DNA from: Dongia deserti
GTDB taxonomy: Bacteria > Pseudomonadota > Alphaproteobacteria > Dongiales > Dongiaceae
Direction of reading: 5' to 3'
Length of the DNA: 64,000 nucleotides
Assembly: GCF_003574735.1 (NCBI RefSeq)
Contig: NZ_QORW01000008.1
Coordinates: forward strand, 124,001-188,000
Within the stretch, counting starts at the first letter, position 1; every line of letters begins with the position of its first letter. Below, piece after piece: positions 28,928 through 35,651 of the stretch. The position numbers were made by a program, and so were the translations under genes. Below the pieces are notes generated by a model. It made no database searches, was not told the origin of the DNA, and saw only the letters and a list, made by a program, of their open reading frames with translations.

Positions 28928-29395
28928 TTATTTCGCGCGGAAAGCTTTGTGGCAGCTGCCGCAGGCGCCGCCCAGCTTTTCGAACTCGGCCTTAATCACG
29001 CCCATGTCCCCCCCGGCGACGGCGGTCTTGAACATGGCGGCTTCTTCCTGGAACTTCTTCACCGCGGCTGCGAAGTCATCTGGCTTCTGCCAGATCTCCG
29101 GCTTGGCCATGGTATGGCCGGGATCCTTGCCTTGCGGCTGATCGGTTCCGGCGGGGAAGAGGGTCGCCAGCTTCATCGCCGTGTCGTTGATCTGGTTGGC
29201 GTGAGGGGCCAACTCGGCGGCAGAACCACCGTTTTCCAGCGCGGTGTTGATCGCCTTCATGGCCTTGCCATTCCCCTTCATCGCTTCCCGGCGCTCGGAA
29301 ATCGGATCCGCTGCCTGCACCAGCGTGGCGAGGGTGGCAAAACCGATGGCCGAGGCTAGCGCCACGGCGCTAAGCTTCGAGATGCGTCCCTTCAT
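28928..29395 (-). CDS. Cytochrome c' (class II c-type cytochrome)
   Basis: 155 residues with a signal peptide (SAVALASAIGFATLATLVQA, cleaved near AADP) and a four-helix bundle ending in the heme attachment site CGSCHKAFRAK close to the C-terminus, diagnostic of class II cytochromes c. It is periplasmic, with a pentacoordinate heme that in this family binds NO or CO. ATG 29395 follows AAGGGGAAC. It is convergent with the cytochrome b561 gene. Confidence 0.93.
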   Translation of the reverse strand: MKGRISKLSAVALASAIGFATLATLVQAADPISERREAMKGNGKAMKAINTALENGGSAAELAPHANQINDTAMKLATLFPAGTDQPQGKDPGHTMAKPEIWQKPDDFAAAVKKFQEEAAMFKTAVAGGDMGVIKAEFEKLGGACGSCHKAFRAK

Positions 29396-29530
29396 CTGAC
29401 GAGTTCCCCTTCTTGGAAAGATGACACTGAAACCAATAAGCCACTGACAGAGTTACACTAACAGCCCGCCATTGACTGGGACATGATGTGTCCTAGCCGC
29501 TCACGTCCTTGTGACCTATCATGTGCCGGA

Positions 29531-29570
29531 CTGACCGAGAACTGTCACGGAACTGACGTAGTTCTGTAAC
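29531..29570 (+). promoter_or_regulatory. Putative Pho box: four tandem 11-bp repeats upstream of the CYTH-CHAD gene
   Basis: CTGACCG (29531), CTGTCAC (29542), CTGACGT (29553) and CTGTAAC (29564) recur at exactly 11-base spacing in one orientation. PhoB binds direct 7-mers of CTGTCAT type separated by 4 AT-rich bases, the same period. The array ends about 60 bases before the likely CYTH-CHAD start. Function is inferred from the pattern and the polyphosphate role of the downstream gene. Confidence 0.68.
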
Positions 29571-29633
29571 TTTCTTGCGCAGAGGCTGCACTTTATGGTG
29601 CGCGCCACAAAGGAGAAAGCGCACGGGGACGGC

Positions 29634-31190
29634 ATGCCGATTGAGACGGAGCTGAAGCTGCAGTTGCCGCAGACGCTCCAAGGGTTCGATTCACGCCTTT
29701 TATTGACGCGTCTGCAACCGAGTTTGCGCTCCAAGGGAACCAAGAAGGTTCTTCGCAACGTGTATTTCGACACGGCGGAGCGCGATCTGGCCAAGCGCGG
29801 CATAGCGCTGCGCGTGCGCGAGATTGGCCGCAAGCGGATCCAGACGCTGAAAGTGCCCAATGGCAGCGCGCTTGGGCTGCAAAGCTTTCGGGAACTGGAG
29901 GCGGAGCTTCCCAACGATCAGCCGAGCCTGGCGAAGGTCGGCGATCGCGCCCTGGCACGCGAGCTGCGGCAGGGCATTTGGCCGAAATTGCAGCCGGTCT
30001 TCTTGACAAATTTCGAGCGAACCTCCTGGCGGTTGCCCTATCGCGAGTCGGAAATAGAGGTCTCACTGGATCGCGGCAGCATTCTCGCCGGCGATCGCGA
30101 AGAGCCGATCCATGAGCTCGAGCTTGAGCTCAAAGGAGGCAATCACATCGATCTCTGGGGTGCGGCCGAGGAGTTGCTGGATATCGTGCCGTTCCGCCTT
30201 GGTCACGTGACCAAGGCTGCGCGCGGCTACGCTTTGGCCGATGCCGCTTCGCCGCAGCCGCAGAAGGCGGCGCCGGTCAAGCTGACCGACGACGACACGG
30301 TCGCGACCGCCTTCGAGAAGATCGTTGCCGGCTGTATTGCGCAGATGCAGGCCAACGAGGCTGCAATGCTGGCAACTGGCGCGGTCGAAGCAATCCATCA
30401 GTTCCGCGTCGCCTTGCGGCGGTTACGCGCCATTGTCGGCGCCTATCGCGAGTTGATCGACGATACCGTCCATGCCGCCTGGTCGATCGATCTGCGGTGG
30501 GCGCAGCGCGCCTGCGGGCCGGCGCGCGACCTGGACGTCCTGGTGCTGGAGACCCTGTCCCAGATGTCATCCCACCTGCAGCACGACGAAGCATTCCAGC
30601 GCTTCCTGCAAGTGGCGAACGAAGGGCGGGCTGTCGCGCGGCGGGAGGCGATCCAGGCCCTGCACAACCCGCGCTACGCGGCCATGCAGCTGCAATTGTT
30701 CCAGGGGCTGCACGATGGCGCATGGCGGCATGCGCTGGCCGGTCCGATCCTGGACGCGCCGGTCCGCGATTTCGCCGAGCGGCTGCTCCAGAAGCGCTAC
30801 AAGCGCCTCATGAAGCTGGGCGAGCGCTGGTCGGAGCTGCCGGATGCAGAACTCCATCGCCTGCGCATCTTCGGCAAGAAGCTGCGCTACGTCTCGCTCG
30901 CCTTCTCCTCGCTGTTCAAGCCGAAGGCGACCAAGCGCTTCCAGGATCGCCTGTCGGACGTGCAGGATTGCTTGGGCGCGGTCAATGACGGCGCGGTTGG
31001 CCGGCAGTTGGTTCGACACTTGGCGGAGCGCGCCGGCGCGCAGGGCGCCCTGGAGCCGAACAACCTGCAGCGCATCCAAGGCATGGTCGTCGGATGGCAG
31101 ACCCACGCTGCCCATGAAAGAATTGCAGAGTGCGCAGAAATCTGGACTACCTTTGCGGAAACCAAGCAGTTCTGGCGCATGCGCCGCTAG
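29634..31190 (+). CDS. CYTH and CHAD domain-containing protein (inorganic triphosphatase-like)
   Basis: About 518 residues from ATG 29634, preceded by GGGGAC (an ATG at 29595 is possible but close to the Pho-like array). The N-terminal CYTH domain opens with the ExExK motif (IETELKLQL) that binds triphosphate and Mg. The C-terminal CHAD domain has its conserved histidines and basic helices (EAIHQFRVALRRLRAI, LRIFGKKLRYVSLAF), a polyphosphate-binding helical domain. CYTH-CHAD proteins hydrolyse triphosphate or associate with polyphosphate granules. sixA, ppk1 and ppx follow, consistent with a polyphosphate role. Confidence 0.92.
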   Translation: MPIETELKLQLPQTLQGFDSRLLLTRLQPSLRSKGTKKVLRNVYFDTAERDLAKRGIALRVREIGRKRIQTLKVPNGSALGLQSFRELEAELPNDQPSLAKVGDRALARELRQGIWPKLQPVFLTNFERTSWRLPYRESEIEVSLDRGSILAGDREEPIHELELELKGGNHIDLWGAAEELLDIVPFRLGHVTKAARGYALADAASPQPQKAAPVKLTDDDTVATAFEKIVAGCIAQMQANEAAMLATGAVEAIHQFRVALRRLRAIVGAYRELIDDTVHAAWSIDLRWAQRACGPARDLDVLVLETLSQMSSHLQHDEAFQRFLQVANEGRAVARREAIQALHNPRYAAMQLQLFQGLHDGAWRHALAGPILDAPVRDFAERLLQKRYKRLMKLGERWSELPDAELHRLRIFGKKLRYVSLAFSSLFKPKATKRFQDRLSDVQDCLGAVNDGAVGRQLVRHLAERAGAQGALEPNNLQRIQGMVVGWQTHAAHERIAECAEIWTTFAETKQFWRMRR

Positions 31191-31201
31191 GCGACGCTGC
31201 T

Positions 31202-31729
31202 CTAGTCTCCGCGCTCGATCTGCTTCGGTGTCGCGAAATCGATGAGATGCCCGGTCTCGGCATCCGCATCGCCCCAGTCCTCGACATCGAACTCGATCAC
31301 CGCAACGGCGCCCGTCGGGAATTTGCGCGCCAGATTGGCGCGGTGCTCCGCCTTGCCGTGGCTGCATAGCCAGTTGGCAAAGTCGGCAATGCCCGGATTG
31401 TGCCCGACTAGCATCACGCAATCCGGTTCGCGTCCCACCGCCTGGATCCGCCGCAGCATTTCACGCGGCGTGGCGAGATAGAGGCTTTTCAGCTTGCGGA
31501 CCGTGGGCTTGACCTGCCAGCCGGCGCACACGAGGTCCAGGGTCTCCAGCGTCCGTTTGGCGGAGGAGGTGAGGACCAGGTCGGGCACCAAGCTCCGGCG
31601 GGCGAGATAGGCGCCAACCACCGGCGCAGCCTTGCGCCCGCGGCTGGACAAGGGGCGGTCGAAATCGGCCAGGCTGGGATTGTCCCACGCCGATTTGGCG
31701 TGGCGCAGCAGGATCAGTCGTTTGGGCAC
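31202..31729 (-). CDS. sixA: Phosphohistidine phosphatase SixA-like histidine phosphatase
   Basis: 175 residues from GTG 31729. A histidine-phosphatase superfamily protein: the catalytic LILLRHAKSAW at the N-terminus, a second Arg block, and CVMLVGHNPGIADFANWL with the second catalytic His. SixA-type enzymes dephosphorylate phosphohistidine on HPt domains or PTS proteins. It is convergent with CYTH-CHAD (11 bases apart) and divergent from ppk1, inside the polyphosphate module. Confidence 0.88.
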   Translation of the reverse strand: MPKRLILLRHAKSAWDNPSLADFDRPLSSRGRKAAPVVGAYLARRSLVPDLVLTSSAKRTLETLDLVCAGWQVKPTVRKLKSLYLATPREMLRRIQAVGREPDCVMLVGHNPGIADFANWLCSHGKAEHRANLARKFPTGAVAVIEFDVEDWGDADAETGHLIDFATPKQIERGD

Positions 31730-31850: not shown

Positions 31851-31868
31851 ATGTCACATAACTGTCAT
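31851..31868 (+). promoter_or_regulatory. Putative Pho box upstream of ppk1
   Basis: ATGTCAC (31851-31857) and CTGTCAT (31862-31868) are direct repeats 11 bases apart with the AT-rich spacer ATAA, matching a single 18-base PhoB site. It lies 36 bases before the likely ppk1 ATG and about 120 bases from the divergent sixA start. Confidence 0.7.
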
Positions 31869-31903
31869 GAATGGTCTTTAGCGTCGTTCGAATCGGCCGG
31901 AAT

Positions 31904-34138
31904 ATGATCGAGAAGACCGACAAGATAGCCGCGGCCCTTGCCGCGGGCGGAAATGGAATTGGAGCTGGAGAGCAAGCCGTGGACGACGCTGCAGCGGATC
32001 TATCGCCACTAAAGATCGGGATGACCTCGCCGAATCGCTTCATCAATCGCGAGCTGTCCTGGCTCGCCTTCAATGAACGCGTGCTGGACGAGGCGGGCAA
32101 CCCCAACCACCCCTTGTTCGAGCGGTTGCGCTTCCTCTCCATCTCCGCCAACAACCTCGACGAATTCTACATGGTGCGCGTCGCCGGTCTGCGCGGGCAG
32201 ATCCGGGCCGGCGTTTCCGTCACCAGCGCCGACGGCCTGACCCCCGCGCAGCAGCTGGCCGCCATCAACCGGCGCAGCGGCGAGCTGATGCGCAACCAGC
32301 AGGCCCATTGGCGACAACTGCGCCAGCTGCTGAGCGAAGCGGGCGTTGCAGTCATCGACCCCGGCGAGTTGACCGGCACGGAGAAGGCCTGGCTCGATAC
32401 ATTCTTCCTGGACCAGATATTTCCGGTGCTGACACCGATGGCTGTCGATCCGGCACATCCGTTCCCCTTCATGCCCAACCAGGGGTTTGCGATGGCGCTG
32501 GAACTGCGCCGCGCTAGCGACGGCAAGATGCTGCGCGCACTGCTGCCGCTGCCCTCGCAGCTGCCGCGGTTCATCCGCTTGCCTGGCGCCGATCCGAAGA
32601 ACATCCGCTTCTTGACCTTCGAGGATATGGCGGGGCTCTATCTCGACCGCCTGTTCCCGCAGTTCGACGTCATCAGCAAGGGCCACTTCCGCCTGATCCG
32701 TGACAGCGAGATCGAGATCATGGAGGAAGCGGAGGATCTGGTCCGCCATTTCGAATCCGCCTTGAAGCAGCGGCGCCGCGGCACGGTCATCCGTCTCAAG
32801 GTGAATGCCGAGATGCCGGAGGACCTGCTCGCCTTCGTCATCGACGAGCTGGGCGCTGACCGTGCCGACGTGTTCCCGCTCGATGGGCTGATCGGGCTCG
32901 CCAGCACGTCCAAGCTGATCGTGGATGAGCGGCCGGACCTCAAGTTCCAGCCGTTCAATCCGCGCTTCCCGGAACGCATCCGCGATTTTGGCGGCGACTG
33001 CTTCGCCGCGATCCGGCAGAAGGACATCGTCGTCCACCATCCGTACGAGAGCTTCGACGTGGTCGTGCAGTTCATCCTGCAGGCCGCGCGCGATCCCAAC
33101 GTGGTCGCCATCAAGCAGACGCTCTATCGCACGAGCGAGGACAGCCCGATCGTCAAGGCACTGATCGAGGCGGCGGAGGCAGGCAAGTCGGTCACCGCGC
33201 TGGTGGAGCTGAAGGCACGGTTCGACGAGGCGGCCAACATCCGCTGGGCGCGCGATCTGGAGCGCGCCGGCGTGCAGGTGGTCTACGGCTTCGTGGCGCT
33301 GAAGACTCACGCAAAGGTCTCGATGGTGATGCGGCGCGAGGCCGGTACCTTGCGCACCTATGTGCACTACGGCACCGGCAACTATCACCCGGTCACAGCG
33401 AAGATCTATACCGATCTCAGCTTTTTCACTTGCGACCCTGGTCTGTGCCACGACGCGGCGCGGCTGTTCAACTACATGACCGGCTATGCGACGCCCGAGG
33501 GCACGGAGAAAGTAGCGTTCGCACCTGTCACGTTGCGGCCGACCTTGCTGCGACTGATCAATGACGAGATTGAACATGTGAAGGCCGGCCGGCCCGGCTC
33601 GATCTGGGTCAAGCTGAACTCGCTGGTGGACGGTGAACTGATCGATTCGCTCTATCGCGCCAGCCAGGCGGGCGTGAAGATCGATCTGGTGGTGCGCGGC
33701 GTCTGCTGCCTCCGGCCTGGTATCCCCGGCCTGTCGGAGAACATCCGGGTGAAGAGCATCGTCGGCCGCTTCCTCGAGCATTCGCGCATCGTCTGCTTCG
33801 GCGCGGGGCAAGTCTTGCCGTCGCGCCAGGCGAAGGTATTCATTTCCTCGGCGGACTGGATGCCGCGCAACATGGATCGCCGTCTCGAGACCCTGCTGCC
33901 GATCGAGAACTCGACGGTGCATCAGCAGATCCTCGATCAGATTATGATCGCGAACCTCAAGGACAATATGCAAAGTTGGGTGTCGGATTCGAACGGCTAC
34001 TATCACCGGGTCGAACCGGGCGAGGAACCGCCGTTCAGCGCCCATCACTATTTCATGACGAATCCAAGCTTGTCGGGCCGCGGCTCAGCGCTTAAGAAAC
34101 GGGCCAAGACTCCCAGGCTAAATTTGTTGAAGGGTTGA
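31904..34138 (+). CDS. ppk1: Polyphosphate kinase 1
   Basis: About 744 residues from ATG 31904 (an ATG at 31871 would directly follow the Pho-like box and is less likely). PPK1 reversibly polymerises ATP gamma-phosphate into polyphosphate at the inner membrane. Seen are the N-terminal [17 protein letters not shown], the PPK middle domain, and two phospholipase-D-like C domains with the autophosphorylated His in [13 protein letters not shown] and the second-site region [16 protein letters not shown]. ppx follows after 4 bases. Confidence 0.97.
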
Positions 34139-34142
34139 TGCA

Positions 34143-35651
34143 TTGACGGCAACGCTGCGGCAAGCGGCCGCGATCGCCAAAGCGACAAAACCTGGGCGGG
34201 TCGCGGTCATCGACGTCGGATCGAATTCCGTTCGTCTTGTAGTCTACGAGAAACGCTCGCGCAGCCTGGTCCCGATCTTCAACGAGAAGGCGCTGCCTGC
34301 ACTCGGCAGGGGGCTTGAGCGGACCGGCAAGCTGAATGCCGAGGGCCGCAAGGACGCGCTGATCAACATCCGCCGTTTCGTCGCGCTCACGCGCGCGATG
34401 AACGTGACGGATGTCGAGATGCTGGCGACCGCCGCCGTGCGGGACGCCAAGGACGGCAAGGAATTCGCCAAGGAGATCGAGCGGGCGACCGGCGTTGCCG
34501 TCCGGGTGATCTCAGGCGAGGAGGAGGCGCGCCTTTCCGCGATGGGCGTTCTCGCCGGCGTGCCCAAGGCCGACGGGCTGATGGGCGACCTCGGTGGCGG
34601 CAGCCTCGAACTGGTCCTGTTGAACAAAGCCAAGATCGCCCAGCAGGTGACCTTGCCGATCGGTCCTTTGCGGCTGGCGGAGGCGACCAACGGTGACCTC
34701 GATGCCGCGCAAAAGATCATCGACCAGCAGCTGGACGAGCTCGAATGGCTGCAAGAGGTGAAAGGCCGCACCTTCTATCCGGTGGGCGGCACTTGGCGCA
34801 CGCTGGCGAAGATCCACATGGATCAGACGCACTATCCACTTCATGTGATCCACGAATACCGTATCGGGCGCCGCTCGGCCGAGGATCTGGCGCGGGTGGT
34901 CAGCCGCCTCGGCCGCCGCAGCCTCTCTTCATTGGAAGGCATCTCCAAACGCCGCATCGACACGCTGCCGCTGGGCGCGCTTGTCATGGAACGCCTGTTG
35001 CGCGCGGCGAAGCCCGACCGGACCCTGTTCTCCGCGTACGGACTGCGTGAAGGGTGCCTGTACGCCAAGCTCACTGCGAGCGATCAGGAGGCCGATCCCT
35101 TGCTGGTCGGTTGCGCGGATTTCGCCGGGCTGGACAGCCGTTTTGAATCGCTCAGCGACGCGCTCGACAGCTGGATCGCGCCTTTGTTCTCCGACGAGGA
35201 CGACGGACGTGCGCGCCTGCGTGAAGCGGCGTGCCTGCTATCCGATCTCGGCTGGCGCGAGCATCCCGACTATCGCTCGGAACAGGCCTTCATGCGCGTC
35301 CTTCGGATGCCGGTCGCCGGTATCGACCATGCGGAGCGCGTGATCCTGGCGCTCGCCATGGCGATCCGCTACGGCGCCGACCTCGACGAGACGCACTACG
35401 CGGATCCCTTCATGCAGCTGCTGAAGGATGACGATGTCACCTATGCCTGGCGCATCGGTGCCGTCATTCGCCTGGCCTATTCGCTGAGCGGCGGCACGCT
35501 TGCCATGCTCAACCAGACCCGGGTCTCGAGAAAGGACGGCAAGATCTGCCTGCATCTGCCGCAGGAATCCCGCCTGCTGTTCGGCGAAGCTGTGCAACGC
35601 CGCCTCGACGCCGTCGGCCGCGCCTTCGACAAGGCGGTGCAGATCGTTTAG
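34143..35651 (+). CDS. ppx: Exopolyphosphatase (Ppx/GppA family)
   Basis: 502 residues from TTG 34143, preceded by GAAGGG. The ASKHA-fold phosphatase opens with VAVIDVGSNSVRLVVYE, then LATAAVRDAKDG, SGEEEARLSAMGVL and the catalytic GDLGGGSLELVLL, with a C-terminal HD-like helical domain. It releases phosphate from polyphosphate ends or converts pppGpp to ppGpp. The tight junction with ppk1 indicates one transcript making both polymer synthesis and turnover enzymes. Confidence 0.95.
   Translation: MTATLRQAAAIAKATKPGRVAVIDVGSNSVRLVVYEKRSRSLVPIFNEKALPALGRGLERTGKLNAEGRKDALINIRRFVALTRAMNVTDVEMLATAAVRDAKDGKEFAKEIERATGVAVRVISGEEEARLSAMGVLAGVPKADGLMGDLGGGSLELVLLNKAKIAQQVTLPIGPLRLAEATNGDLDAAQKIIDQQLDELEWLQEVKGRTFYPVGGTWRTLAKIHMDQTHYPLHVIHEYRIGRRSAEDLARVVSRLGRRSLSSLEGISKRRIDTLPLGALVMERLLRAAKPDRTLFSAYGLREGCLYAKLTASDQEADPLLVGCADFAGLDSRFESLSDALDSWIAPLFSDEDDGRARLREAACLLSDLGWREHPDYRSEQAFMRVLRMPVAGIDHAERVILALAMAIRYGADLDETHYADPFMQLLKDDDVTYAWRIGAVIRLAYSLSGGTLAMLNQTRVSRKDGKICLHLPQESRLLFGEAVQRRLDAVGRAFDKAVQIV

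Follow-up and report, generated by a model that had tools for sequence, protein, structure and literature searches.

A putative multi-unit PhoB operator ahead of a CYTH-CHAD gene in a Dongia-like member of the Rhodospirillales

The gene of a CYTH-CHAD protein is preceded by four repeats which very probably constitute a genuine PhoB binding site, as judged from their sequence and its conservation. We propose, with considerable confidence, that they form a multi-unit PhoB operator that would activate the gene under phosphate shortage. The four units are direct repeats on the plus strand with an exact 11-bp period, located at positions 29531-29570 of the window, i.e. the whole 64-kb stretch of DNA that was analysed. 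A previous sequence-only reading had recorded these four 7-mers with their coordinates, shared orientation and period, all of which were found again in the sequence, and its interpretation as a multi-unit PhoB site gains computational support from the matrix score, the conservation and the motif found at pst and phoX. The source organism falls among the Dongia-like Rhodospirillales, and its relatives within the genus are MAGs, for example 'Rhodospirillum sp. PB1.008'; the genus alignment used here comprises four species (that of the window, G001, G002 and G003).

The repeat array and its gene

The features of the locus are as follows.

28928-29395, minus strand: cytochrome c' gene (Pfam PF01322), upstream and divergent
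29501-29514, no strand: palindrome-like TCAC-N6-GTGA, in the region that separates the cytochrome c' gene from the divergent CYTH-CHAD gene
29531-29537, plus strand: PhoB-type unit 1, CTGACCG, weak and outermost; kept in G003, absent from G002 and G001
29542-29548, plus strand: PhoB-type unit 2, CTGTCAC, strong; TGTCAY kept in all four genus members
29553-29559, plus strand: PhoB-type unit 3, CTGACGT, a variant with A in place of T4; within the genus, TGACG is invariant
29564-29570, plus strand: PhoB-type unit 4, CTGTAAC, strong; the same 7-mer occurs in the organism's own pst promoter
29575-29581, plus strand: TTGCGCA, possibly a degenerate unit 5 that keeps the register, by inspection; TTGC kept in all four genus members
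29591-29596, plus strand: probable -10 element, CTTTAT (CATTAT in G002 and G001; conserved WTTATG)
29634-31190, plus strand: CYTH-CHAD protein gene (Pfam CYTH and CHAD), start corrected to the probable ATG at 29634 (MPIETELKL)
31202-31729, minus strand: SixA-like histidine phosphatase gene (Pfam PF00300), after the CYTH-CHAD gene
31851-31868, plus strand: candidate second Pho box, ATGTCAC-ATAA-CTGTCAT, immediately 5' of ppk(-ppx)
31907-34138, plus strand: ppk, polyphosphate kinase (Pfam), likely start ATG 31907
34143-35651, plus strand: ppx, exopolyphosphatase (Pfam), directly 3' of ppk as a tight pair

The CYTH-CHAD gene probably starts at 29634. The listed start at 29595 was rejected on two grounds: the ATG lies across the conserved -10, and the reading frame from it is broken by a shift in both G002 and G001. 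Aligned homologues begin at E-x-E-L-K-L just past the start, which corresponds to 29634 here. An alternative ppk start at 31871 likewise overlaps the promoter. The protein consists of a CYTH domain followed by a CHAD domain, with the ExExK motif and conserved basic residues of YgiF-like proteins; E4, E6, K8, R60, R62 and K73 are invariant in 15 homologues, and solved structures are matched by both domains, the inorganic triphosphatase 5A60 by CYTH and 6QV5/6QV7 by CHAD. The architecture is like that of the inorganic triphosphatase YgiF of E. coli (PDB 5A60/5A61).

Units 2 and 4 of the array, 22 bp apart, fit the PhoB half-site used at pst; units 1 and 3 (CTGAC..) match it in part, their fourth base being A instead of the T preferred by the matrix derived from pst. 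With strong units at 2 and 4 and weak ones at 1 and 3, the array is open to being read as two neighbouring Pho boxes of two units; it may function as such a tandem, a weak unit being paired with a strong one in each box, or else as a graded operator. It conforms to the definition of a PHO box as at least two direct 11-nt units of seven conserved and four less conserved positions. No recognisable -35 element was found at 16-18 bp from the probable -10. The last unit of E. coli Pho promoters lies ~10 bp upstream of the -10, and the distance here is ~20 bp from unit 4, so that the classical layout is equalled only if the degenerate unit 5 is counted. In the whole genome (6,126,647 bases), four CTGWM at 11-bp steps are matched once with no mismatch and nowhere with one mismatch; with two to three mismatches, the pattern is no more frequent than its reversed control (14 versus 14 for all matches). 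The exact pattern CTGTNAC-N4-CTGTNAC has no match in the genome, since the array contains units of both the CTGTMAC and the CTGAC kind. An inverted repeat, GAAC-N7-GTTC, around unit 3 was dropped, as it is broken in G001.

The motif at phosphate and polyphosphate genes

The genome encodes PhoR together with pstSC-pstA-pstB-phoU-phoB, and hence a cognate PhoR/PhoB pair. Directly 5' of pstSC lies TTGTCAC-N4-CTGTAAC, which includes the 7-mer of unit 4. A single reading frame of 828 aa encodes a PstS-PstC fusion (L173:4534-7020, on G000:C8), and because of this fusion a TIGR00975 search of the genome gave no PstS match; pst was located via PhoU. A unit matrix was trained solely on 39 units from 13 pst/phoU promoters of the family, with a consensus of [CT]TGT[CA]AT/C followed by four A/T-rich bases, and was used for ranking within the 64-kb window and the retrieved loci, genome-wide counts being made by pattern search. 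With this matrix, 29542-29570 ranks first among the three-unit sites of the window (score 18.7) and scores higher than any of 2000 dinucleotide-shuffled versions of the 150 bp upstream. Adjacent two-unit scores within the array are modest (6.6-11.2) versus about 24.2 at the ppk box. The sequence-only reading had called the array longer than usual, which does not hold for this family: arrays of more than two units are nothing out of the ordinary, three being frequent at its pst promoters.

The stricter pattern HTGTMAY-N4-HTGTMAY has six sites in the genome and none in the reversed control, and three of the six precede phoX (encoding the PhoX alkaline phosphatase), pst and ppk. In sister species, the same pattern again marks phoX and adjoins an Na/Pi cotransporter gene, which links the motif to phosphate genes within this lineage. 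A triple CTGTCAT-like site (G000:C49:112741), which spans the junction of two minus-strand frames, was excluded as support. The site before ppk, at 31851-31868, has the top two-unit score of the window (24.15); it is kept in G003 and G002, and a variant site takes its place in Dongia. This box, ATGTCACATAACTGTCAT, is stronger than the array and was absent from the sequence-only reading.

Conservation among relatives and alternative readings

In the genus alignment, the segments TGTCAY, TGACG and CTGTAAC at 11-bp steps are invariant, as are TTT-S-TTGC and the -10, in each of the four species. A non-coding block made up of units 2-4 and the -10 is conserved, with a constant distance to the -10 (4/4), and the pattern TGTMAY-N5-TGACG-N3-TTCTGTAAC has a single match in each of the four genomes, always ahead of the CYTH-CHAD gene. 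Alignment of the upstream regions therefore bears out the 11-bp period and its register. The claim of a four-unit site needs qualification: units 2-4 are present in all four species, but unit 1, at the outer end, is shared by the window with G003, its nearest relative, alone, and two of the four units (1 and 3) match weakly. Dongia-type relatives carry CTGTCATCAAACCGTCAT at the equivalent position. The palindrome-like element at 29501-29514, TCACGTCCTTGTGA, is also conserved, TCACG-N3-TTGTGACC being kept in 4/4 of the genus and similar in Dongia.

A wider comparison covered 80 related CYTH-CHAD loci, in which the best two-unit score in the upstream 200 bp was set against dinucleotide shuffles (p<0.01), with control genes taken from the identical loci and genomes. 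A significant site on the gene strand was found at 24 of the 80 loci versus 4 of 320 control genes, and on the opposite strand at 9 of 80 versus 9 of 320, in counts whose rows are not independent (several are from Azospirillum and Dongia). At a score of at least 15, the corresponding figures are 16/80 versus 2/360 on the gene strand and 7/80 versus 1/360 on the opposite strand. The opposite-strand excess at p<0.01 (11% versus 3%) is less secure than the same-strand excess. Over all upstream regions, strong 7-mers most often stand 11 bp apart, with 19 gene-strand pairs against 6 for the second most frequent spacing. Significant sites precede the CYTH-CHAD gene in many Rhodospirillales; no upstream site was detectable for the homologues of Paracoccus, Methylobacterium and Xanthobacteraceae.

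Opposite-strand PhoB-type pairs lie 5' of CYTH-CHAD genes at L048, L050, L057, L063, L078, L091, L095 and L110 (reverse p<0.01), and one is found ahead of an Na/Pi cotransporter gene at L159. Such pairs may signify repression, control of another gene or another regulator. It could be hypothesised that the Rhodospirillales kept PhoB control of CYTH-CHAD while the operator flipped strand, with activation in some lineages and repression or a different regulation elsewhere, a scenario that we regard as rather unlikely. If it were true, the polyphosphate module would offer a natural series in which the rewiring of Pho operators could be followed.

A related question is whether, in the window itself, PhoB would bind the array and repress the CYTH-CHAD gene, or act on the divergent cytochrome c' gene. 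The site lies between the two divergent genes, the box is inverted in other lineages, and the synteny with cytochrome c' is kept in the genus and in Dongia. However, activation of CYTH-CHAD agrees with the orientation of the units and with how far they lie from the -10, and the more distant relatives L039, L046 and Azospirillum keep a same-strand site with no detectable cytochrome c' neighbour, so that we consider this reading improbable. The repeats could instead bind another alphaproteobacterial response regulator of the OmpR family that uses a tandem 11-bp site, most plausibly CenR or ChvI, which would place the gene in an envelope-stress regulon. CenR recognises TGA-N8-TGA, also with an 11-bp step (PMC9275681), and units 1 and 3 contain TGA; but these two units are 22 bp apart, and TGA-N8-TGA is absent from the array in the nine genus and family promoters tested. 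Neither the ChvI motif (TTGC-N3-GCAA or GCC-N8-GCC; PMC9731502) nor the CtrA motif was found in the array, the orthologous sites of Dongia (TGTCAT-CGTCAT) are devoid of TGA, and the motif is common to pst and phoX, all of which makes this alternative very improbable. There is only a slim chance that the spacing arose by coincidence or that the site is an evolutionary relic out of use, as could be suspected from the degeneracy of units 1 and 3 and from a score below that of the ppk box, given that the array is unique in the genome, kept in 4/4 of the genus and enriched over control genes.

Proposed mechanism and comparison with known systems

For PhoB-dependent activation, we propose that phosphorylated PhoB monomers would bind head to tail on the 11-bp units along a single face of the DNA, with strong contacts at units 2 and 4 and weak ones at units 1 and 3. 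PhoB would then bring in sigma-70 RNA polymerase, which would engage the -10 (29591-29596) in the absence of a proper -35, with a transcription start predicted near 29600-29605. The box at 31851-31868 would act likewise for ppk-ppx, so that the polyphosphate cluster would be co-controlled. CHAD domains bind polyphosphate (PMC6537752), and it is expected that the CYTH-CHAD product would bind polyphosphate via CHAD and probably hydrolyse short (tri)polyphosphate via CYTH. Its PhoB-driven co-expression with ppk-ppx would link it to the remodelling or mobilisation of polyphosphate in starvation. Since putative PhoB sites precede both CYTH-CHAD and ppk, a shortage of phosphate probably leads the bacterium to adjust its phosphate store.

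The PHO box has been described as two 11-nt direct repeats, CTGTCAT, with ppk as a common Pho target (PMC4415409). The array resembles proteobacterial PhoB operators in its head-to-tail 7-mers, 4-bp spacers, single orientation and promoter devoid of a -35, and differs from them in being uneven, with 4-5 units and strong units 22 bp apart. In addition, its last strong unit lies one helical turn further from the -10 than in the classical Pho promoters of E. coli.

The sequence-only reading regarded phosphate control as outside the standard description of this protein family; for CHAD proteins it is not entirely without precedent. The open literature, taken apart from older Rhizobium PhoB regulon tables, yielded no proteobacterial CHAD or CYTH case connected with PhoB or phosphate starvation. 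To our knowledge, E. coli YgiF has not been described as a member of the Pho regulon. The precedent comes from Streptomyces lividans, in which the ppk-pptA-SLI_4382 operon is under PhoP, according to RT-qPCR and a phoP mutant (PMC8003754). Similarly to what is proposed here, a CHAD (phosin) gene and ppk belong to the Pho regulon in that organism. However, PptA is reported as a CHAD phosin encoded in one operon with ppk and governed by a Gram-positive PhoP, whereas the present case, in the Rhodospirillales, involves a CYTH-CHAD fusion with its own box, a separate box for ppk-ppx and putatively PhoB. Closer in phylogeny, the ppk1 of the alphaproteobacterium Caulobacter crescentus is induced by phosphate starvation and reported to be PhoB-independent (PMC11208175), in contrast to the present ppk, which carries a strong PhoB-type box. 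The proposal would assign a widespread and poorly understood fusion of a polyphosphate-binding CHAD and a triphosphatase CYTH domain to phosphate starvation in Alphaproteobacteria, through a common operator type linking its gene to ppk-ppx. The question of its function would thereby narrow to the effect of CYTH-CHAD on polyphosphate granules while PhoB is active.

PhoB-type sites were also observed beside genes of other kinds. A two-unit site lies near trypsin/PDZ protease and family 2 glycosyltransferase genes (L213, G000:C23:270672). A box, CTGTCATNGGCNTGTCAT, is common to three sister genomes (L216, G000:C25:23718; L211, G003:C8; L215, G002:C21:140455). At L215 the genes that follow it encode an acyl carrier protein and an aminotransferase of class I/II that may be serine palmitoyltransferase-like, a context that suggests phosphate-controlled lipid remodelling.
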